A stretch of 64,000 nucleotides of DNA from Bradyrhizobium sp. NDS-1. GTDB lineage: Bacteria; Pseudomonadota; Alphaproteobacteria; Rhizobiales; Xanthobacteraceae. A program made the translations under genes and the position numbers. Below, piece by piece: positions 1,209 to 46,566 of the stretch (its first letter is position 1; every line of letters begins with the position of its first letter). The stretch lies in NCBI RefSeq assembly GCF_032918005.1, contig NZ_CP136628.1, positions 7,177,501 to 7,241,500 on the forward strand, read 5' to 3'. The notes beneath the pieces were generated by a model. The model saw nothing but the letters and a program-made list of their open reading frames with translations, did not search any database and was not told the DNA's origin.

Positions 1209-2384
1209 TCAGTCGCCCTTGGTAGCGATTGGCACAAGCGCACCCGCATCACGATCGTAGCGATAATTGACTATCGACCCATCCTTCAATCGTACAACCG
1301 CCTCGCCAATGATGTGGGATGGCACCAAGAACCATTCACGGGGCCGCACCTTCTGGCCAAAGCGGTCCGTGATCTCGATATCGAGCCGCGCGGATGCAAA
1401 TAAATCGTGCAGTAAATGTTCAAGCTTAACCCGGTCGATGTTGTAGAGAGTGTAGGTCGTCACCGGATGCACGGAGGCCATCAGAAACGTTGGATCGTCC
1501 TTAGCATTCTGAATGCGGATTTCCATCTTGCCTGAAGTGAAGCCGATCTTGTGAAGCACGCCGTCCAATTTGCGGATTTCTGGGTCGTCTGAAAGGCTTT
1601 TCACAACGTAAATCATCCCCGTCTGCGCGTCGCCCGCAGCAGGTGTGTCCGTAAAGAGCGGCCCCATGTCGGTGGTGGTGATCCGGCGGCCGTTGGGGTC
1701 TTTGTACAGTTCAGTCGCAAGCGAACGCAAAAGGTTGTTGCCTTCGGTTCCGTTATCGAAGATGAGTCGCAGTCGCGCATTCTTCTTTCCGTTGCGGATG
1801 TGCATCTCGCCCACCTCCGCGACGTAAACGAGCACGCCGTTCAGGATGAAGAACTCCCCCGCGCCGATTTCCTGCTCGTTAGCGAAAGGGATGGCTTTAC
1901 GCTTGCCATCAGCCATTTCGCGGACGCATTGCTCAAACAACGGCTTGAATTTGTCGAACTCGGTGCACAGCTGACGCTCGGCGATTTCGTCCGGCTTGGC
2001 AGCGGCCGGCTTAACATGGACGAGATCGAAGATGTCATCTTGCGGCGTCTTCAGCAGGTCGTCGTCGAATATCTCATCGAGCGTCTGCAGCTGCTTCACC
2101 GGAGCGATCGGAAGCAGCGCGTGGCGATCGAGCGGCAACAATACGTCGCGGATGGTCGGGTCCTTCAATAGGCCGTTCAATTTCATGCGCAAGGCCCGCT
2201 CGGAGACGGTCGGCTTGTCCGTATCGCCGGGTTTGCGCTTGTGATGATCGATGAACTTATTGACATCGACGAAGGTATCGACAATTCGCTGTTGCTCGCT
2301 TGAAACTGCTTTGGTGGCGGCTGGCTTGACGTCCAGCAAGGGGTCGCTACCGCTTAAGAGGTCATGGAGCGTCGGTTTTGGCAT
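1209..2384 (-). CDS. GIY-YIG nuclease-domain protein of an RM-like operon
   Basis: This 391-residue protein has a helical N-terminal region (1-250) of unknown fold and a C-terminal GIY-YIG domain of the T5orf172/MUG113 type. Residues 258-261 (IYVV) and KIGFTSG at 279-285 match the two core strands. Glu322 in KLEHLLHDLF fits the conserved metal-binding acid, and REWF near 349-352 matches the C-terminal motif of the subfamily. GIY-YIG domains cut DNA by hydrolysis with one divalent metal. The gene is the third of a run with the methyltransferase and helicase, starting 6 bases after the helicase stop. The context implies it is the cleavage subunit of a restriction-like complex. That role is inferred, not shown. 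Confidence 0.85.
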   Translation of the reverse strand: MPKPTLHDLLSGSDPLLDVKPAATKAVSSEQQRIVDTFVDVNKFIDHHKRKPGDTDKPTVSERALRMKLNGLLKDPTIRDVLLPLDRHALLPIAPVKQLQTLDEIFDDDLLKTPQDDIFDLVHVKPAAAKPDEIAERQLCTEFDKFKPLFEQCVREMADGKRKAIPFANEQEIGAGEFFILNGVLVYVAEVGEMHIRNGKKNARLRLIFDNGTEGNNLLRSLATELYKDPNGRRITTTDMGPLFTDTPAAGDAQTGMIYVVKSLSDDPEIRKLDGVLHKIGFTSGKMEIRIQNAKDDPTFLMASVHPVTTYTLYNIDRVKLEHLLHDLFASARLDIEITDRFGQKVRPREWFLVPSHIIGEAVVRLKDGSIVNYRYDRDAGALVPIATKGD

Positions 2385-2390
2385 GGCGAC

Positions 2391-4370
2391 TTAGCCCGAC
2401 TGTTGGGCGCGCATCTGTTCGCGCTTTTTTGCCCTAATCCATTCAAGCGCCTCGGCGAGGCGGCGCTCCATCGGGTTCTGCGCCGTCAAGCTCGGCTCAC
2501 GTCCATGCGTCTCGTTGAAGCTCTTGATGCGCGGCCAAAGTGCTACCGCCTCCTCCTCGGTCATCTGAATGCGACGCGCCGTGATCGCGCCGTGGATGCG
2601 CTTTAACACATCGGCATCTACTGACTTCGACATGATCTCATACGCAAGCTGGAACGGATTGATGCTATTGATCAAATCAATATCGAGCTCTTTAACGTTG
2701 ACGAACTTATCGGCCATCTTGATGAGATTATCGTTCAACTCCGGCAAGCTGCCGTTACTGCTCGCCTTGAATGCGGCGTTAGCGACGACATGTTGGCGCA
2801 CCTCTTCGACCTCTTGGGGCGTGAGGTCGGGGTATTTGGTCTCGATGACTTTCGGCACATAGACTTGCGTCACGACTTCCGCAGGAATCTCCTCCGGGTT
2901 CATCGCGGCACGGAGCACGCGCTCGTCCTGCATGACCGAAGCGGTGAGGTCGATCAGGTCGCTCTGCAGGATCTGCCGCACGCGAGGCGTACTGGGCTCG
3001 GCGAAGCCCTTGATGGCGACGGTAGTTTCGCTGTTCGTGTAGTCGATATCGACGATCTTGGTGCCGCCGTCTATATTATCGTCCGTGGCGCGTGTCTTGA
3101 ACTTGAAGTTCGGTGCAAGCACCTGCTCCATCAGGAGCGAGGCGGCGATCGCCTTCAGCATGTTGTTGACGGCTTCGGCAACGTTGTCGGCGGAGGCGTC
3201 GGGCTCGGCGATTAGGTTAGTGAACTGGGCGTGCGACTTACCTGGGCAGTCCCGCGTGGCGCGCCCGATGATCTGGATGATTTCCGTAAGCGAGCCGCGA
3301 TAGCCGACAGTCAGCGCGTGCTCGCAATAGATCCAGTCGAAACCTTCTTTAGCCATGCCGAGGGCAATGATGATGTCGACGTCATCGCGATCCTTGATAT
3401 TGCGCAGCGTCTCCATCACACGGTTCCGCGTCTTCTCGTCATCCTCCACAAGATCGGCCACTTTGAGAATCTTGCCGCTCTTGTGCCGGACATGATGGAG
3501 CCCGGTGGCCGCATCTGTTTGGATGACGTCTCCCAAGTGATCTAGGATGCGGTCGACTTCCTCATACTTCTCCTTGGTGCTCTCGGCGGCGTTGACGCTT
3601 GGGATATGGATGATGGTCTTTTTGTCAGGGTCGAGAATCTCATTGATCGCATCGAGATAGCGGCCCCGGTAGAAATGATACCCAATGCCGAGGCTCTTAA
3701 GATGCGTGTAGCCGTTCAACTGCTCATAGTAGGTGTAGCTGACGCGAGTGAACCGCTCCTCGTCTTCCGGCCGGAGCACTGGAATGCTGTCGCCCCGGAA
3801 ATAGCTGCCAGTCATAGCAACAATATGAACACGGCCGTCGGCCATTAGACCGCGAACGACCTCGCCAAGGCGGCTATCTGCGTCAGCCGAGGCGTGGTGA
3901 AACTCGTCGACGGCGAGGAGGCAATTGGCAAACGGCTCAGGGCCAATTTTGTCATAAGCGAAGCGTAGCGTGGCATGCGTGCAGATCAGCACCTCGGCGT
4001 CGCTCTCGATGAACGTCTGAAACCGGCCGACCTTTCCCGCATCACCGCCAGCGGTGCAGAGGTTCCATTCATCATCGACGGCCCAATCCCGAAAGAAGCC
4101 GTGGTCGGTGAGCTTCGTCGCACGAAATGACGAACCGATCGATCGCTCGGGCACAGCGACGATGACTTTGCGAATGGCCTGATGTTGCAGCTTGTCAAGA
4201 CCAATGAACATCAAAGCGCGGGACTTGCCGGAGGCTGGTGGCGCTTTGACGAGGAGATATTGGGAGCCGCGCTCAGCGTAGGCTCGCGCCTGCATCGCGC
4301 GCATTCCCATGGCGTCCTGCTTTTGGCTCGCGCCGGTTTGCCCGTAAGTGACATGCACGAAATCAGGCAC
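2391..4370 (-). CDS. DExH superfamily 2 helicase/translocase of an RM-like operon
   Basis: This 659-residue SF2 ATPase has Walker A APPASGKS at 43-50, motif II DEFHH at 155-159, motif III MTGSY at 186-190 and motif VI QIIGRATRD at 366-374. The two RecA-like domains span roughly residues 35-400. The remaining 250 residues are helical with no recognised domain and may bind a partner or DNA. It overlaps the methyltransferase stop by 8 bases and runs into the GIY-YIG gene after 6 bases, so the three are translationally coupled. The organisation resembles the motor subunit of type I/III restriction systems. I infer DNA translocation or unwinding that links target recognition to cleavage. Confidence 0.9.
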   Translation of the reverse strand: MPDFVHVTYGQTGASQKQDAMGMRAMQARAYAERGSQYLLVKAPPASGKSRALMFIGLDKLQHQAIRKVIVAVPERSIGSSFRATKLTDHGFFRDWAVDDEWNLCTAGGDAGKVGRFQTFIESDAEVLICTHATLRFAYDKIGPEPFANCLLAVDEFHHASADADSRLGEVVRGLMADGRVHIVAMTGSYFRGDSIPVLRPEDEERFTRVSYTYYEQLNGYTHLKSLGIGYHFYRGRYLDAINEILDPDKKTIIHIPSVNAAESTKEKYEEVDRILDHLGDVIQTDAATGLHHVRHKSGKILKVADLVEDDEKTRNRVMETLRNIKDRDDVDIIIALGMAKEGFDWIYCEHALTVGYRGSLTEIIQIIGRATRDCPGKSHAQFTNLIAEPDASADNVAEAVNNMLKAIAASLLMEQVLAPNFKFKTRATDDNIDGGTKIVDIDYTNSETTVAIKGFAEPSTPRVRQILQSDLIDLTASVMQDERVLRAAMNPEEIPAEVVTQVYVPKVIETKYPDLTPQEVEEVRQHVVANAAFKASSNGSLPELNDNLIKMADKFVNVKELDIDLINSINPFQLAYEIMSKSVDADVLKRIHGAITARRIQMTEEEAVALWPRIKSFNETHGREPSLTAQNPMERRLAEALEWIRAKKREQMRAQQSG

Positions 4371-7152
4371 TCGCTACCTCCTTTTCCTTGCCGGAGGTCA
4401 TCGCTGCATAAAGTTCGAACAAGTGTTCGAGGCGCTCGGTATCATTCTTGAAGGGCCGCCCGATGTAAATTCTCTCAAGACATGAATCGAGTTCACGATG
4501 AGCGTCGACCAAATTCTGCGGCATCGTTTTTGATGCATAAAGCCAAGCCAACGTCTTGCCCGAATGAGCTTCTCGTGCAGCGAGAACCTCCCATGCAAGT
4601 TCTTCGAGTAAGTTTATCTGCGCTTCGTCAAGACGAGGTAGAGGGAACGTATTGTACACGACGGTGTTCGAATATCGAAAATCGGTCTTCATCCGGCCGC
4701 CGACAAGACGCAACCACGCGACATGCATTTTTGAAACAACTACAGACAGCAAGTAGGCTGGCGGATCGACCACCATGTACGCGAGATGGGTAACAATGGT
4801 GTTGGCATCGACGAAACCGGCGGGTATGTACTCTCGACGTTCGGAAGAGACCGCTGGAACGACCAGCGTCGTCTCCTTTGCCGTGCGGCGCAGAAAGAAC
4901 TGATGAGGACGATCGGCGCACGAAACGGCTGTCTGGCCGCCCTCAATACGGAATGCGCGAACCGCTTGAATGCGGCTCGCGATTTCCTCAATACGGCTTG
5001 CCTCCACTAGGTCCGCATCTTCAATCCACAGGCACCATCTTTTGATGCCGTTAATGTGCTCGCGAGAACCGACAACGGGACGAAGGAACTTGGCGGCGCC
5101 GGGCGCTGATGCCAGAAGTCGCTCCTTGTCTGGATCGGACAGTAGAAGCTGTCCGTCATCAAGCGCCGTATTGCCGTGATACATGCGTGGCAATCCCGAC
5201 AATTGCCCTGATCGCTTGCGTACATAGTAGTTTGGCGCAGCGATGAGGTAGGAATTAATGTTAGGTACCTGAATCTGGGCTCCTTCCTTGAAGAGCCGCT
5301 TTCTACCTGGGCCACCAGCCCTACGAGCACCTACAATTGAACAAATGACGTTGGCATTATGCGACGCACTATTTGACCACTTGAAATCTCTAAATGCGAA
5401 AGAAATTTCCACGTTTCGTGCAAATATCTCGCGCCAAAGTTCGGAGGCGTGAATGCCCTGATTTAGAGAGTTGGTGCAAACAAAGGCGAACTCGATAGAA
5501 TCGAATTTGCCAAGATAGTCAGTTGCCTTTGCAAACCAGCCAGCTACGTAGTCCAGATTTTTGGGGCTAAGCGGCCAGCCATCAAAGGACCGGCGCAGAT
5601 CTCCCTTTTGAGTCGCATTCTGGATTTTTCCTCCCAGATAAGGCGGATTCCCAACAACGAACGTTTCTGCCTCGTTGTCGATCACTTCCTCGCTCGCATG
5701 AACCTTCTCCACACGCGCGAGGTCGAAAATTTTCTCCTTCTGAACCGTCTTGGTCGGCCGGGGACAAACGAGAAGCCAATCGATCAGCAAGGCGTTCCCG
5801 CAAACGATATGGCCCCCATCTCGTAGGGGAAAGCTCTTCGGCGCCTCGCCGAAGAGGCGCTTGAATCGCTGATTCATCTGGTATTCGGCGATCCAAAGCG
5901 AAAGTTTCGTCGTTTCCGCCGCAAAGTCGGCTAGTTCGATTCCGTAGAAGCTCGATAGCTTGACCCCACTCTTCTCGCGCCACGTCGTCTGGCCTCCGCC
6001 AATCTCGTCGATGCGCTGAAAGATGCGCATCTCGAGCGTGCGCAGTTCCCGGTACGCGATAATCAGAAAGTTGCCGGAGCCGCAGGCCGGGTCGAAGACG
6101 CGAATCTTTGAGATGCGCGTCAATAGCTTCCGCAAAAGCGAGCGCTCCTCGCGGTGCCCTCGTGCACGCTCAAACTCTTCTTCGAGCGACATCAGAAAAA
6201 GAGGCTGCAAAACCTTCATGATGTTCGGCACGGACGTATAATGCATGCCGAGATCGCCACGCATGGCAGTGTCGACAACGGCCTGGATCATCGACCCGAA
6301 GATGTCTGGATTGATTTCACGCCAATCGAGCTGGGCGGCTTCGATTAGCATACGTTTGGAGCGCCGATTGAAAGCGGGGACTTCCGTACTGTCCGCAAAG
6401 AGACCCCCGTTCACATAAGGAAACGCACGAATGTGAGCGGGCAGCTCGTTGCGACGGTCCTCGGGCAGGTTCATTACGTCGAACATCTGCTTCAAAAGTC
6501 CTTGCAGATGCTCGCCGTCGTTACCTCCATGTTCGGTGATGGTCTTGACGAACAAATCTTGAGGAAAACTGCCGGTGTCCTCGGCGAACATGCAAAAGAG
6601 GATGCGCGTAAGAAATTGATTGAGCGCGTGCCTCTTTCCCGGCACCAACCACTCGGGGTTTTGACGTTCGATTTCGTCGTGCAATTTAGCCAGACGGCCA
6701 GCCGCTTTGATGTCGGCCGGGTTCTCGGCGACCGCTTCGTACTTTTCGATTCCTACTAGCGGCAGGAAGAAATCGAAGCGATCGTTTAGCTTGTCGAAGT
6801 CGCAATGACAGGTGTCGTCGGCCTTTGTGTCGTAGACAGCAACGTCGCGCCCATCGGTTACCAGGAGGAAGCGCGGCTTTTGCGTCTTCGCCGCCTTGCT
6901 TTCCCTGAGCTGGTCCAGTGTCTCTGCAACTTTTCCGACTGGGGCGGGGCGGTAATAGAGCTTTCGTGACCAGAGCACATCGCTCGGCCTCTCCCCCTTA
7001 TTCTGAGTGCCTGAGCGCAACTTCGTGAGTGTCGCCTTGGGAGCGTTGTAGACTTCTAGAAGTCGGAACGCGAACTCGCCTTGGTCAAATGGCTCCTTCA
7101 CGAGGTCGGCAAACTGCATTACGATTTCGGCGATGTTCATCCGGCACAGCAT
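4363..7152 (-). CDS. MmeI-like class I DNA (adenine) methyltransferase
   Basis: This 929-residue protein has the layout of the MmeI/type IIG family: an N-terminal domain (1-165), a helical spacer, a methyltransferase core and a C-terminal target-recognition region. S-adenosylmethionine motif I is DPACGSGNF at 354-362, and catalytic motif IV is GNPPYLGG at 501-508, typical of N6-adenine methylation. HYTS at about 304-307 precedes motif I as in the family. The N-terminal domain, which carries a D-ExK nuclease site in MmeI, shows LYYRPAPVG where the ExK strand should lie, so it is probably not a nuclease. Several in-frame starts exist (7152, 7140); neither has a strong binding site. First gene of the helicase/GIY-YIG operon. 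Confidence 0.9.
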   Translation of the reverse strand: MLCRMNIAEIVMQFADLVKEPFDQGEFAFRLLEVYNAPKATLTKLRSGTQNKGERPSDVLWSRKLYYRPAPVGKVAETLDQLRESKAAKTQKPRFLLVTDGRDVAVYDTKADDTCHCDFDKLNDRFDFFLPLVGIEKYEAVAENPADIKAAGRLAKLHDEIERQNPEWLVPGKRHALNQFLTRILFCMFAEDTGSFPQDLFVKTITEHGGNDGEHLQGLLKQMFDVMNLPEDRRNELPAHIRAFPYVNGGLFADSTEVPAFNRRSKRMLIEAAQLDWREINPDIFGSMIQAVVDTAMRGDLGMHYTSVPNIMKVLQPLFLMSLEEEFERARGHREERSLLRKLLTRISKIRVFDPACGSGNFLIIAYRELRTLEMRIFQRIDEIGGGQTTWREKSGVKLSSFYGIELADFAAETTKLSLWIAEYQMNQRFKRLFGEAPKSFPLRDGGHIVCGNALLIDWLLVCPRPTKTVQKEKIFDLARVEKVHASEEVIDNEAETFVVGNPPYLGGKIQNATQKGDLRRSFDGWPLSPKNLDYVAGWFAKATDYLGKFDSIEFAFVCTNSLNQGIHASELWREIFARNVEISFAFRDFKWSNSASHNANVICSIVGARRAGGPGRKRLFKEGAQIQVPNINSYLIAAPNYYVRKRSGQLSGLPRMYHGNTALDDGQLLLSDPDKERLLASAPGAAKFLRPVVGSREHINGIKRWCLWIEDADLVEASRIEEIASRIQAVRAFRIEGGQTAVSCADRPHQFFLRRTAKETTLVVPAVSSERREYIPAGFVDANTIVTHLAYMVVDPPAYLLSVVVSKMHVAWLRLVGGRMKTDFRYSNTVVYNTFPLPRLDEAQINLLEELAWEVLAAREAHSGKTLAWLYASKTMPQNLVDAHRELDSCLERIYIGRPFKNDTERLEHLFELYAAMTSGKEKEVASA

Positions 7153-7321: not shown

Positions 7322-8203
7322 TTACACTAGCTGCCTATCGACGATTTCGCCTTGTGTGATGAAGAGCCGGTTGATCTTCCGATCCTTCATCGTGGGTTGC
7401 GCAACGACCCTAAGGGTAAGTCCCTCATTAAGGGCACGGGTGTATATGTTTCCCGGCTTTAAAAGCTCATCGTCTGCGATCTTTCCGGAGACGATCTTCT
7501 TCTTTGGCGCGTTCAGGATTTCGACACGGCAGGCCCCATTCGTTTTGAAGACGCCGTGAATGCGAACAACATACTCCTCCTTTTCGCCGAGACTAAGCAT
7601 GTCCGGCGATCTGAGTACCTCCGCTGCCGGCTCGTCTATTACTGTAGCGACGCTGGCCTCACCGATCTGCATGTGATTGACGGTTCTTCCGACTGGGTCG
7701 GGAAGCTGTCTGATCGAGGCCCGGTTCTCGCGCGCCATCGTTGTGATCATACGCTGTAGCCAAGCCTTATCCCGCATATGACCTTCGTGAACCTGCTTCC
7801 CAAACTCGTTGTGGGCCATGGCAAGTTCGTGGATACGATCGACGGCGTTGTTGCTCTCCTTCTTTGAAAGGACCCTGTCGATTACCGCCTTGATCGAAAG
7901 CTCGATGAACTTCTTCGCGACCGTAATGAGGATCGGACTGTAAAGCGGAAGCTGACCAGAATTGGAGATCGCGAAGATCTCTTGCAGTAGACCGTTCTCG
8001 CGGCTCGGCCCCACACAAAAGCGTATGTGATAGGAACGCGGATCGTGCGTGATGTTCTCCCAGAAGAGTTCGTGACAGATGCTATTGGCGAGTTTAGTTG
8101 TCCCAATGAGCGATCGGCCGAATTGCTGAGCATCAACGAAATGCTGATCGGCAAGCAGTCCTCTGTACGCAATAGGTATCGGCTCAAATAGTGGTTCCGA
8201 CAT
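7322..8203 (-). CDS. DUF7946-like hypothetical protein of the defence island
   Basis: This 293-residue soluble protein starts at the ATG at 8201-8203, preceded by GGGGGT; a longer frame to 8245 lacks a site. The N-terminal half has the pattern I associate with DUF7946: an AYRGLLADQH-like start, SLIGTTKLANSICH, DPRSYHIRFCVGP and SGQLPLYSP. A helical KQVHEGHMRDKAWLQ stretch lies in the middle and a beta-rich C-terminal domain begins near residue 190. No catalytic motif is evident. It lies between the DUF4145 gene (59 bases upstream) and the methyltransferase operon (169 bases downstream), all in one direction. The function is unknown; a sensor or adaptor for the neighbouring enzymes is possible. 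The family assignment is from memory and needs a profile search. Confidence 0.65.
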   Translation of the reverse strand: MSEPLFEPIPIAYRGLLADQHFVDAQQFGRSLIGTTKLANSICHELFWENITHDPRSYHIRFCVGPSRENGLLQEIFAISNSGQLPLYSPILITVAKKFIELSIKAVIDRVLSKKESNNAVDRIHELAMAHNEFGKQVHEGHMRDKAWLQRMITTMARENRASIRQLPDPVGRTVNHMQIGEASVATVIDEPAAEVLRSPDMLSLGEKEEYVVRIHGVFKTNGACRVEILNAPKKKIVSGKIADDELLKPGNIYTRALNEGLTLRVVAQPTMKDRKINRLFITQGEIVDRQLV

Positions 8204-8262
8204 TCTACCCCCGTTGACCAAACACCCTATCCATCCGGACCTCAAGGAGCCCCACCGTTGAA

Positions 8263-9081: not shown

Positions 9082-10779
9082 TCAGGCTTTCCGGTTTTGC
9101 AAGCGCCAATGGCTCTCAAGCTTCTCGCAGAGTTGCTTCTGGCGAGCCTCAACAATCGAGGGCGTCCAATCAGCGTGCTCCAAAACTTGAGTGGTTAGCA
9201 CGAACGGCGACACACCATCTTTGGCGAAATAGGCCTTCTTCTTGCGATCGAAATCCCAATTACTCGCCGCCGCGTTCTTCTTTCGCGTCAACAGGGCTAA
9301 ATTTCCGAGGGAGTGAACCACCTCTAGACGCTTCTGCGCATCCGGAAACCACTCTACCCACTTGCTGTCTGCCTTGGGATTTTGGGGAAGCACATGCTCC
9401 ACCGTGATCGTGTCATAGTCGTAACTTGCGCCGCCACCGGACATCAGTGCGTCCAGACGAAGCAACACCGCCGATCGGGCGCGAGCCGCAAGCGTATCAT
9501 AGAGAGGGCCGCTCAGGACCTTGTATGTCGCCGCTTGTTCTGCCTGGGAGAGCTGCAAAGCGGATTTCGTGCTATCCAGGTCATCTCCATTCTCGACCTC
9601 TTTCGTAAGTCTAGAAAACTTTTCTATACGATCGTTTATGCTACTCTTACGGACCAGCATCGAATAGGCGAGACGCTCCAAATCTCGGAAGAACGCCTCC
9701 ATTTTTTTGGGTTGATTTCGGTGTCGGACCGCAAAGGCCAGCCCTGGCGGCAGCCAATCATTAAACTCAAGTCTATTGAGCCACTTGAGATGCTCATTAA
9801 TGATCTCAGCCCTTTCTGAGCTGACGTAAGCAGCGTCAGTCAGTTCAGCGAAGACTTCGCCAATTGGCACGATCACGTCGTCGACTAATTGCTTCGGTTT
9901 ATAGGCTTGGGCTACGTGCTCGCGAAACTCTTTCAAGACTGTGCCTTTCGGCTTTGCCTTGCGATAGATCATGCGAATGAGGCTCAGAAGTTCGCTAAAC
10001 TGATCGCGCCCTAGGGACTCTTCGAGGTCTTCCCATTTCTTGGTGTATGCGTCGCGTTGGCCATCTTCGATTGCGCCAACGATCTCCGCCTTCAAGATGT
10101 CACCTGGAGCGAGAGGCAGACCGCGGCTGTTGAGGATGGAAAAGATGCGGTAGGCGGAATCAAGATCGGGAGTTGACACTGCGACAAGAAAGCAGCGCGT
10201 CACAATGAACTGGGCGAGCGTAACGCGCTCCGCGGCAGTCAACTTCTTCAATCGTTCATCGAAATAGAGCGCATTTCTTCGCAGGTTTTGGCGGCTGTCG
10301 GAATTTTGTTCGCCCAGTGCGACAAGCTTGGCGAACCCGCCCTCACGTTGAACATACGTTTGAAAAAATTCGAGATCTCTGGATCGCAACGCCAGCCGAA
10401 ATCGATCCTGCGTCCCAAGAATCTGACTACCCTTCTCGTATATCAGCTGGGTAATATCGCGGCCTTCTTCCGTAGCCAAGTTGGCGCGGATAGCTGAAAG
10501 CAGCAGAGTAATCGTTGTCAGCCTCTGCTGGCCGTCTACGACCTGACACAGGGGGGCGGTGCTTTCTGGTTTAATTAGAACAATGCTTCCGAGGAAATAC
10601 GGCGTCGAGTCATCGTCCGACTCCTCTGATCTCGCGGTGTCCCAGATGTCATCAAATAGATCGCGCGCCTGCTCAACAGTCCAAGCGTAGGGACGTTGAA
10701 AACTGGGTATTTCAAAAACATAGTCGCCGCCAAAAATCTTGGATATGGGATGTTCGTGCGCTGAAAGTGGTGATGCCAT
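9082..10779 (-). CDS. DUF262/DUF1524 protein, GmrSD-like nuclease
   Basis: This 565-residue protein has an N-terminal DUF262 domain with IPSFQRPYAW (24-33) and DGQQRLTT (82-89), the ParB/Srx-like nucleotide-binding signature. The C-terminal DUF1524 domain has EHVLPQNP at 461-468 followed by HSLGNLALL and N-A-A-A-S-N, the His-Me (HNH) nuclease motif. The single-chain fusion corresponds to GmrS plus GmrD of the GmrSD modification-dependent restriction enzyme. In that family nucleotide-stimulated cleavage targets DNA with hydroxymethylated or glucosylated cytosine. Start chosen at ATG 10777-10779 because GGGGGAA precedes it at proper spacing; the frame is open to 10815. It is the first gene of the leftward island. 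Confidence 0.88.
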   Translation of the reverse strand: MASPLSAHEHPISKIFGGDYVFEIPSFQRPYAWTVEQARDLFDDIWDTARSEESDDDSTPYFLGSIVLIKPESTAPLCQVVDGQQRLTTITLLLSAIRANLATEEGRDITQLIYEKGSQILGTQDRFRLALRSRDLEFFQTYVQREGGFAKLVALGEQNSDSRQNLRRNALYFDERLKKLTAAERVTLAQFIVTRCFLVAVSTPDLDSAYRIFSILNSRGLPLAPGDILKAEIVGAIEDGQRDAYTKKWEDLEESLGRDQFSELLSLIRMIYRKAKPKGTVLKEFREHVAQAYKPKQLVDDVIVPIGEVFAELTDAAYVSSERAEIINEHLKWLNRLEFNDWLPPGLAFAVRHRNQPKKMEAFFRDLERLAYSMLVRKSSINDRIEKFSRLTKEVENGDDLDSTKSALQLSQAEQAATYKVLSGPLYDTLAARARSAVLLRLDALMSGGGASYDYDTITVEHVLPQNPKADSKWVEWFPDAQKRLEVVHSLGNLALLTRKKNAAASNWDFDRKKKAYFAKDGVSPFVLTTQVLEHADWTPSIVEARQKQLCEKLESHWRLQNRKA

Positions 10780-10835
10780 TGATTTCCCCCGTCTAGAAAC
10801 ATTGACATCTGGCACCTAGGGTTGTCGAGAACCAA

Positions 10836-10982: not shown

Positions 10983-11012
10983 TTGACAACAGGACTGCGA
11001 CATTAGTTCAAT
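10983..11012 (+). promoter_or_regulatory. Possible sigma-70 promoter of the RidA gene
   Basis: TTGACA at 10983-10988 matches the -35 consensus exactly. TTCAAT at 11007-11012 is a weak -10 at 18-base spacing. It lies 75 bases before the proposed RidA start. Single sites like this occur by chance, so the call is tentative. Confidence 0.3.
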
Positions 11013-11086
11013 CCTGTCTGGCAGCACCAGCCTTTCCCTCCCGAAGCGAGCCCTCCAGAGAGTCCGCAACGTCCACGGATGCCATC

Positions 11087-44484: not shown

Positions 44485-46566
44485 TTACGCGGTCTTCACC
44501 GCTCCCAAGAAGCCCTCGACCGCAACGCGGAGGCGATCGGCGTCGGCCGACATCTTCTTGACGGAGTCCGACAACACCGTGCCGGCGTTGCCGGTTTCCT
44601 GGTTGAGCCTGGCGACGCTGCCGATGGTGTCGGTGACCTCGCGGGTGCCCTGCGCGGCCTGCTGGAAGTTGCGCGAGATCTCGGTGGTCGCCGCGCGCTG
44701 CTCTTCGACGGCGGCGGCAATCGCCGTCATCTTCTCGTCGATGCCGCTGATGGCGCCGCCGATCGCGCGGATGGCGGTGACAGCCTGGCCGGTGGCGCCC
44801 TGGATTTCCTCGACCTGGCGCGAGATCTCTTCCGTCGCCGTCGCAGTCTGCGCCGCGAGGCTCTTGACCTCGCCGGCGACCACGGCGAAACCGCGGCCGG
44901 CCTCGCCTGCGCGCGCCGCTTCGATCGTGGCGTTCAAGGCCAGAAGGTTGGTCTGGGCGGCGATGGCATTGATCATTTTCACGACCTCGCCGATGCGGCT
45001 CGCGGTCTGGTCGAGAATCTCGACCGTCGCATTGGTCTGCTCGGCCTGTGCAACAGCCTCGCGGGCCTCGCGCGCGCTGGACTGCACTTGCGCGGAAATC
45101 TCGCCGACGGACGCGGAGAGTTCTTCGGTCGCCGCCGCGATGGTCTCGAGATTGTTGGTGGCCTGCTCGGCCGCGGAGGAGACCGCCGCGGTCTGGCTGC
45201 TCGATTCCGAAACCAGCGAGCGCACGCCGGTCGCGGTCGCATCGAGCTCCCGCGTCGAGGCCACAACGCTCTGGATGACGGCCTGCACGGTGTCGTCGAA
45301 GCTGCGGCATGCGGAATCGACGGTGCCGGAGCGGGCGAGTTGGAGTGCCTGCTGCGATTCGCGTTCCCGGCCCAGCCGTTCCGCAGTCGCCGCACTCTCG
45401 CGCAGGCTTTCGAGTGCGGCGGCCATGGTCCCGAACTCGTCGGGGTGCCGGGATTGCGGCACCGGCGTCGCGTAGTCGCGCGCACTGATGCGGGCGATGG
45501 CGCCGAGAATGGCGCGCACCGGGCGCATCAGGCGATTGCGCACCACGTACACGCCGGTCAGAGTCACGGCCAGCGCTAGCAGGAAGGCGAACGATTGCAC
45601 GATGAGGTTGGTGAGGGCTTTCGCCTGAACCATCTCCGCACGCGCGATCGACTGGTCGAGCGCCATGTTGGCGACAGCAACGATGGGCGCGAAGGGCGAC
45701 TGGCACAGCGCATTCCATTCCGCAGCGGGCATCGCCGGCTTGCCGCTGCCGTCGAAATTCCTGGTGAGGTCACCGATCTGCTTGAGGACGCCATCTGTCT
45801 TGGCGCGCGCTTCCTTCGCCGCGTTGACCAGGCTCGCCGTCACGTCGGGTGCGGCCAGCAGCTCCTCCATGCCGGTCCACCCGGCGGTGACGATGCCGTT
45901 CCAGCCGGCCACGGTCTGCTTCTGGGTCTCGTCGAGCGGCTTGGAGGTGTTGACGTTCGGGCGCAGGGTCGAGCACTGGATGCCGTAGCGGTCGCGCACC
46001 TGCCAGGCGAGGCGGCGGGCCTGGATCATGCGGGCGATGAAGGGATCATTCATCCAGGCGCGGTTCGACACCGCGGTGGACGCGAGGTTGGCGGTCTCGA
46101 TCACCTTGGTGATGCCATCGTACCAGGGGGCGGTGCGCTCCACCTTGCGCTCGGCGCGCGGCAGCTTGGCCTCGTCGTGGAACAGCTGGAATTTCGGCGC
46201 GGCCTCGCTCCAGCGCTGCTTCAGCGTGCCTGCGAGCTCGTCGCGACGGGCGAATTCGACGGTGGAGAGCGCCGCGACGATGGCATCAAAGCCGGCCTGC
46301 TCGGCCTTCTCGGCGGCCCCGAGCTTGGCGCGCGGATCGTCCTCGCCGAGCAGCGCACTCTGGGCATCGCCCCGATTGTTGCGCAAGGACAGCACGCCAT
46401 GGAAGATCGCCTTGTCGGCATTCGCAAGCCGTTCGGTCTCCAGACTATCGCTGTAGCGGCCGAAAGCCCCGACCATCTGGATCGCGGTCGAGGCCAACGC
46501 GCCGGCGGCCAGCAGCGCCATCAGCGTCAGGAGAAGCGAGCTTACCGATTTCTTAAACATCGTCAT
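44485..46566 (-). CDS. Methyl-accepting chemotaxis protein
   Basis: This 693-residue transmembrane chemoreceptor has TM1 at about 8-30, a long periplasmic helical sensor (31-320), TM2 near 322-345, a HAMP segment ([27 protein letters not shown]) and the cytoplasmic signalling hairpin. The hairpin tip region ([51 protein letters not shown]) is the contact for CheA/CheW. There is no C-terminal CheR-binding pentapeptide. The periplasmic domain is of no type I recognise; its many charged residues and a Cys near 208 do not identify a ligand. No che genes are adjacent. Confidence 0.92.

Follow-up and report, generated by a model that had tools for sequence, protein, structure and literature searches.

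In the genome of Bradyrhizobium sp. NDS-1, a single contig of 7.65 Mb (NZ_CP136628.1), three consecutive open reading frames (ORFs) resemble the DnmA, YeeB and YeeC proteins of Bacillus subtilis. They lie in the window, i.e., the whole stretch of 64,000 nucleotides that was analysed (positions 7,177,501 to 7,241,500 of the forward strand), where they are all intact, occupy the minus strand and span positions 7152 to 1209. In our judgement, they probably make up a working restriction-modification operon of the same kind as DnmA-YeeB-YeeC, whose mode of action resembles that of a Type I system. This reading draws on the gene set itself, the loss of nuclease residues from the methyltransferase, the intact helicase motifs, the Tyr, Arg and Glu residues of YeeC, purifying selection and the exchange of a recognition cassette, all as they appear from sequence comparison.

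In the proposed mechanism, the MmeI-like methyltransferase (MTase) would recognise an asymmetric site of 6 bp, for which G-m6A-G (m6A, N6-methyladenine) is the predicted end, and would methylate one of its adenines. Upon meeting an unmethylated site in incoming DNA, it would recruit the YeeB helicase, which would use ATP to move along the DNA or to remodel it, and the GIY-YIG domain of YeeC would then cut the DNA. Complex formation, translocation, cleavage and phage restriction are steps that we infer. The window copy looks intact and was acquired on a mobile element, and the sequence comparisons support such a division of labour.

The three genes and the missing nuclease site

The genes, and the parts of them discussed below, are the following:

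4363..7152, minus strand: MmeI-like N6-adenine DNA methyltransferase (DnmA/YeeA-like), nuclease site lost; 929 aa, ATG start
6943..6981, minus strand: MTase residues 58-70, by alignment the site of the D...ExK nuclease in solo MmeI-like enzymes; here DVLWSRKLYYRPA, without E and K
4633..5700, minus strand: exchangeable recognition cassette, about MTase residues 485-840 (end of the methyltransferase domain plus target recognition domain, TRD), from comparison with genome G146
2391..4370, minus strand: superfamily 2 (SF2) helicase (YeeB-like); 659 aa, GTG start
4377..4383, minus strand: AAGGAGG, ribosome-binding-like, within the 3' end of the MTase gene, 6 bases before the helicase GTG
1209..2384, minus strand: YeeC-like protein, with an N-terminal part lacking a Pfam match and a C-terminal GIY-YIG/T5orf172 domain; 391 aa, ATG start
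1290..1619, minus strand: GIY-YIG/T5orf172 domain, YeeC residues 256-365 (Pfam, alignment)

A preliminary description of this DNA had recognised a methyltransferase, an SF2 helicase and a GIY-YIG protein, with an overlap of 8 bases and a gap of 6; ORFs, motifs and Pfam matches agree with these assignments, and the overlap (MTase and helicase) and the gap (helicase and YeeC) are found at 4363-4370 and 2385-2390. PADLOC, Pfam and NCBIfam scans covered seven ORFs from the window's left end (the three operon genes and four neighbours), none of which matched an NCBIfam model above its cut-off. The MTase matches all five MmeI domains of Pfam (MmeI_Mtase, E=4.1e-93) and carries the motifs DPACGSGNF (residue 354) and NPPYLGG (502); with DPACGSGNF and NPPY present, m6A at an asymmetric site is the predicted product. 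The helicase contains APPASGKS (residue 43), DEFH (155), TGS (187) and GRATR (369), and its Pfam matches lie below the cut-offs (Helicase_C, 23.1 of 23.5 bits; DEAD, 20.9 of 26 bits). YeeC matches MUG113 (E=1.2e-9) and T5orf172 (E=1.2e-8), its closest named homologs are from Bradyrhizobium, and a search of PDB sequences with it gave no meaningful match. It has IY at residues 258-259 and possesses the catalytic Tyr, Arg and Glu of a GIY-YIG nuclease, Y259, R290 and E322 being invariant in 23 of 23 aligned sequences, the window included.

MmeI cleaves DNA by means of its own D70...E80-K82 site (PMC4833311). Among 67 operon MTases, not one combines the E and the K of this site (the collection scan described below provided 66 of them, the window the other; the alignment left out 6 of the 72 scan methyltransferases, which were too short), with K kept in 0, E in 1 and D in 8. 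Likewise, an alignment of 20 further operon MTases with that of the window shows no sequence in which E and K occur together. All three residues are kept in each of the six solo MmeI-like enzymes compared. By residue comparison, the operon methyltransferase has lost its own nuclease site, the cutting having presumably passed to a partner. Position 6 of the MmeI recognition code is K-D in 31 of the 67 operon MTases, E-R in 23 and otherwise in 13. In the window MTase, the residues at the MmeI reading positions are K822/D824, which by the code in PMC4833311 would specify G at position 6, and L790/R826, which would specify G at position 4; those at position 3 are A767/H789.

It could be argued that the window simply holds an ordinary Type IIG/IIL restriction-methylation enzyme followed by two unrelated neighbours, as the PADLOC label suggests, and the match of model PDLC03598 ('Type IIG restriction enzyme-methyltransferase'), near end-to-end on the window MTase at E=3.5e-284, speaks in its favor. 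However, the nuclease site lacks its E and its K, and the hallmark of Type IIL/IIG enzymes, a methyltransferase and a PD-(D/E)XK nuclease in one chain, is not found in this protein. The model gives higher scores to three solo enzymes in which these residues are retained (1125-1228 bits) than to three operon MTases (821-943 bits) and fails to separate these two groups of three; it calls operon methyltransferases Type IIG restriction enzymes despite their lost nuclease residues. Since, in addition, the helicase and YeeC neighbours are conserved, this explanation is highly improbable.

Conservation of the operon and exchange of the recognition cassette

The occurrence of the three genes was followed in a genus set of 195 genomes and a class set of 142, the window's genome being counted in both. 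At cut-offs of E<=1e-10 for helicase and MTase and E<=1e-5 for YeeC, the genus set contains the helicase in 20 genomes, YeeC in 21 and an MmeI-like MTase in 35. In 19 of the 20 genomes with the helicase, the complete set is present and arranged as MTase-helicase-YeeC, and the three genes are whole, judging from ORF lengths and split hits, in 14 of these 19 operons. The class set yielded the helicase in 8 genomes, YeeC in 8 and the MTase in 18, with all three genes in 7 of the 8 helicase carriers. A collection scan with the helicase alignment alone returned at least 552 relatives, the best 80 of which were examined. Among these, YeeC lies downstream of the helicase in 79 (in the eightieth, the contig ends at this point), and an MmeI-like MTase lies upstream on the same strand in 71 and downstream in one; in the other eight, without an MTase match, the start of the helicase lies between bases 4 and 2413 of the locus.

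According to record titles, the operon hosts among these 80 include alphaproteobacteria, Bacteroidota, Actinomycetota, Bacillota and an archaeal metagenome-assembled genome (MAG), and hosts of helicase relatives extend to Pseudomonadota, Bacteroidota, Bacillota, Actinomycetota, Campylobacterota, Planctomycetes, Cyanobacteria and an archaeal MAG. The helicase, searched alone, matches 263 of 72,556 plasmid records (152 cover at least 80% of it, all at less than 60% identity) and 3 of 50,697 phage records, none near full-length, with a best coverage of 64%. The preliminary description had taken the genes for a restriction-like unit and had made their co-occurrence elsewhere a check on this; they do form a conserved unit, recurring together, in one order, across genus, class and collection loci. 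In five close pairs, the ratio of nonsynonymous to synonymous substitution rates (dN/dS) is 0.03-0.09 for the helicase, 0.07-0.16 for YeeC and within 0.03-0.16 for the N-terminal part of the MTase, so that all three are under purifying selection. As full-length homologs are arranged alike in numerous genomes, and as dN/dS is 0.03-0.16, the three-gene unit is non-random.

A different pattern is found in the C-terminal half of the methyltransferase. When the window is compared with G146, the helicases are 96% and the YeeC proteins 93% identical, and the MTases, in blocks of 40 residues, show 75-100% identity before residue 480, 32-45% over residues 521-800 and 50-78% after 800. At the DNA level, identity drops from about 84% to 44-52% over approximately 1 kb and then recovers to 84-88%. 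Such a drop in DNA identity at the cassette was observed in five of six pairs; the sixth has a shared cassette. The pair L118/L116 (helicase 86% identical) has a cassette in common, 91% identical, as is expected from cassette exchange. Among 171 pairs of 19 complete systems (loci with an MTase below 880, a helicase below 600 or a YeeC below 350 aa, i.e., broken, truncated or at a contig end, were left out), the Spearman correlation with helicase identity is 0.90 for YeeC, 0.82 for MTase residues 1-480 and 0.65 for the C-terminal end, but 0.17 for residues 500-800, these ranges having been picked after the first pair (window/G146). Median pairwise identities are 80% for the helicase, 78% for the N-terminal half of the MTase, 64% for YeeC and 39% for the recognition half.

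Given that the recognition half is exchanged and that helicase and YeeC are conserved, it is probably the methyltransferase alone that determines DNA specificity, and direct reading of the site by YeeB or YeeC would be difficult to reconcile with this pattern, as far as sequence comparison can tell. Type I specificity evolves by this kind of recognition-domain exchange. In its sequence, the operon appears to share with Type I systems a specificity located in the modification part and a conserved motor and nuclease.

Observations on the other side and two alternative readings

A number of observations weigh against a functional restriction operon. In the genus set, at least one gene is broken or truncated in 5 of the 19 operons, and in the twentieth helicase carrier (G290), no more than a fragment of the helicase is present, on a contig of 7 kb. 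Three genomes (G178, G327 and G065) keep YeeC and methyltransferase remnants without the helicase, and in the class genome G045 the helicase is present and YeeC is absent from the 2.7 kb downstream. Within the collection, locus L155 is the one with the methyltransferase downstream rather than upstream, and five of the eight MTase-less loci hold 1.2-2.4 kb before the helicase, room for part of a gene; in these five, the MTase is probably not immediately adjacent, and an insert is possible. As for conservation, the recognition half is no less conserved than the N-terminal half in 14 of the 171 pairs, and YeeC is less conserved than both the helicase and the N-terminal half of the MTase. Cleavage, finally, has been demonstrated for no member covered in this analysis, and the B. 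subtilis and YeeC data that follow bear in the same direction.

The proposal made for B. subtilis is that of a relic, in which only the methyltransferase would be selected, as an orphan epigenetic enzyme, and the helicase and YeeC would be decaying leftovers. Deletion of single genes in that organism altered neither killing nor plaquing by three phages, dnmA deletion left transformation unaltered, and the authors termed the cluster a relic (PMC9973331, PMC7261158). In the same direction, a whole methyltransferase accompanies a split helicase and an interrupted YeeC in G165, and a split YeeC in G302. The functional reading is supported by Vibrio crassostreae, where deletion of dnmA or yeeB resulted in greater sensitivity to some phages (as cited in PMC9973331). 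The dN/dS values of helicase and YeeC given above argue against decay, and the helicase is at least as conserved as the N-terminal half of the MTase, although YeeC falls below it. Moreover, an orphan regulator should keep its motif, yet the recognition half is exchanged.

The reverse kind of damage, a broken or truncated MTase beside full-length partners, is found in four copies and also counts against a relic. An element with a DDE transposase splits the MTase of G319, whose locus is 99.9% identical to that of G146 over 16 kb and retains full-length helicase and YeeC genes; a 2.5-kb insertion with transposase-like ORFs (read from their translation) splits that of G286; in G270, the ORF is short by about 180 N-terminal residues, and in G034, a stop lies within the gene, an assembly error being possible in both. 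The loss of a working methyltransferase beside full-length helicase and YeeC thus seems to be tolerated. Ordinary Type II systems are not known to tolerate a nuclease without its working methyltransferase, and tolerated MTase loss fits a nuclease that requires the methyltransferase, or an inactive one. On balance, we regard the relic as unlikely.

Two remnants may be mentioned here as a separate observation. An open frame of 774 aa in G327 (L125:7418-9742), where no helicase was found, joins the C-terminal part of the MTase to most of YeeC and is likely a deletion remnant, and G065 (L098) contains another MTase-YeeC remnant.

A second alternative, slightly less probable still than the relic, is exclusion of the BREX type, in which methylation would mark self DNA, the replication or transcription of foreign DNA would be blocked without cutting, and the T5orf172 domain would merely bind DNA. 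The second GIY-YIG motif of YeeC is indeed KIG (residues 279-281) instead of YIG, and the Asn typical of the GIY-YIG family is not evident in the aligned YeeC sequences. In addition, T5orf172 is described as largely uncharacterised, with predicted roles that involve DNA binding (PMC9973331). Nevertheless, the nuclease Tyr, Arg and Glu are invariant in all 23 YeeC proteins, and Odn (Gp88), a T5orf172 protein with the Arg and the Glu, makes double-strand cuts (PMC8263062). Restriction by a methyltransferase-dependent motor and nuclease is the reading retained here.

Mobile element, internal slot and relation to known systems

The operon is carried by an element inserted at a tRNA-Thr gene. This gene (L058:9472-9546) is followed by an integrase that looks broken into two frames, the first of which was scanned, and the features on the operon side are:

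7322..8245, minus strand: DUF7946/DUF7947 protein, upstream of the operon, non-core (Pfam, tblastn)
11005..11032, plus strand: right attachment repeat, 28 bases identical to the 3' end of the tRNA-Thr gene (L058:9522-9549, about 10.5 kb left of the window)

The repeats bound 21.5 kb with a GC content of 57.6%, compared with 65.5% and 65.2% on the two sides. G233, a genome of the same species, has no match to methyltransferase, helicase or YeeC, and its tRNA end joins the right flank directly (98% identity over 714 bases). By these sequence comparisons, G233 represents the empty site, and the operon is the cargo of a tRNA-Thr element. Other cargo includes a phage minor-tail/peptidase-like protein, a resolvase, a weakly replication-like protein and, at window positions 9082-10815, an intact GmrSD-family protein (PADLOC 'Orf5', E=7.8e-169), which may be a further defence gene. 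The DUF7946/DUF7947 protein adjoins the operon, at 95% identity, in the two closest genus copies, and it has no match beside the other compared operons. DUF7946 and DUF4145 were accordingly rejected as core parts (tblastn at 1e-5 in 117 other loci, matches in the two closest copies only), and so was GmrSD (one weak match, L178, in the same search). A tRNA-Sec gene lies far from the operon, at 45993-46083.

The window operon has no insert between methyltransferase and helicase. In 22 of the 66 collection loci with a full-length MTase, this gap exceeds 300 bases, and it constitutes a recurrent slot, often with toxin-like or regulatory accessory genes (e.g., L140, L168, L144, L202 and L149). These 22 loci plus three class or genus loci contain 42 same-strand slot ORFs. 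The scan covered 20 of them, belonging to 11 of the 22 loci and to the three class or genus loci. Four matched AlbA_2/Schlafen and three Fic; RhuM, BRO-N, Abi_C, AAA_15, KAP NTPase, GmrSD_N and pentapeptide repeats were found once each, one ORF gave a weak HEPN/Abi_2 match below the cut-off, and five had no match. These slot genes recall Type I operons that include anticodon-nuclease or Abi genes.

The preliminary description had left open whether this combination of genes was known under another name and had allowed that a match to a named system would tell against its proposal. Such a match exists: the composition is that of B. subtilis dnmA(yeeA)-yeeB-yeeC, a conserved cluster in which a helicase and then a T5orf172/GIY-YIG protein come after a nuclease-less MmeI homolog (PMC9973331, PMC7261158). 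PMC7261158 credits Morgan 2009 with noting nuclease-less MmeI homologs beside yeeB/yeeC and suggesting a Type I-like system. DnmA is termed an orphan or regulatory methyltransferase in two reviews (PMC12707154, PMC13076061). Among the matches listed in literature searches, which left subscription papers mostly outside, no title gives the system another name. The preliminary description had supposed that the helicase couples methylation to cleavage by the GIY-YIG protein; a methyltransferase-dependent helicase and nuclease had already been proposed (Morgan 2009, as cited in PMC7261158), and the present comparisons lend new support to that proposal, short of proof of cleavage. The gene combination is already known; what is new is its order across phyla, the nuclease-residue counts, the cassette exchange, the YeeC residues, the slot and the element. 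Although the one member treated at length in the literature cited was considered a dead relic, the operon is found in several phyla. Cassette exchange also makes the old Type I-like proposal testable, by asking whether methylation motif and restriction target vary together.

We tentatively envisage, as a proposal nearly but not quite as likely to hold as to fail, a widespread unnamed class between Types I and II, in which a Type IIL enzyme shed its own nuclease and became a combined specificity subunit resembling HsdM/HsdS, a separate SF2 motor and a GIY-YIG nuclease do the cutting, cassette exchange provides new specificities with motor and nuclease unchanged, and the internal slot is the place of interchangeable back-up genes (AlbA/Schlafen, Fic, Abi, RhuM, GmrSD-like), which would act once restriction is disabled.

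Several identities were considered and rejected: a stand-alone Type IIG enzyme, for its missing nuclease residues; DISARM, BREX and MADS, matched solely through the shared methyltransferase fold; and a Dnd-type helicase, TIGR04095 scoring far under its cut-off. The MTase matches PglX and DrmMI more weakly than the IIG model, and neither PglZ/BrxC nor DrmA/DrmB core genes are among the best matches of the seven scanned ORFs, which agrees with the absence of DISARM and BREX markers stated in the preliminary description.

The closest likeness is to DnmA-YeeB-YeeC. The window holds an MmeI homolog without the D...ExK site, an SF2 helicase as the first gene downstream and a T5orf172/GIY-YIG protein as the second, and the B. 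subtilis cluster has the same three kinds of protein, in the same order, in a low-GC, apparently acquired region. In contrast, the B. subtilis copy appears inactive, adjoins other mobile genes and, according to its authors, lacks stretches of YeeB and YeeC (PMC9973331, PMC7261158). The likeness to B. subtilis follows the published description; the Bacillus copy compared directly is that of Bacillus mediterraneensis (L164), with a helicase match of 56%, and MmeI_Mtase matched in 7 of 14 control genomes, B. subtilis among them. The V. crassostreae homologs are the same three genes in a gammaproteobacterial copy, known through PMC9973331. With MmeI (Type IIL/IIG; PDB 5hr4; PMC4833311), the window MTase shares the methyltransferase, spacer, TRD and C-terminal domains and the base-reading positions, but MmeI cuts with its own site, which in the operon is gone, two further proteins being present. 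Odn of phage ICP1 shares T5orf172 with the catalytic Arg and Glu and differs in being a stand-alone nuclease, encoded by a phage, whose DNA-binding domain is RepA_N-like (PMC8263062).

No HsdS or HsdR match was found among the seven scanned ORFs. Type I systems employ HsdS and an HsdR with a fused nuclease, whereas in the window the GIY-YIG nuclease is separate and recognition and methylation reside in one chain; the features held in common are an ATP-dependent helicase, specificity within the modification part, an exchangeable recognition domain and accessory genes inside the operon.

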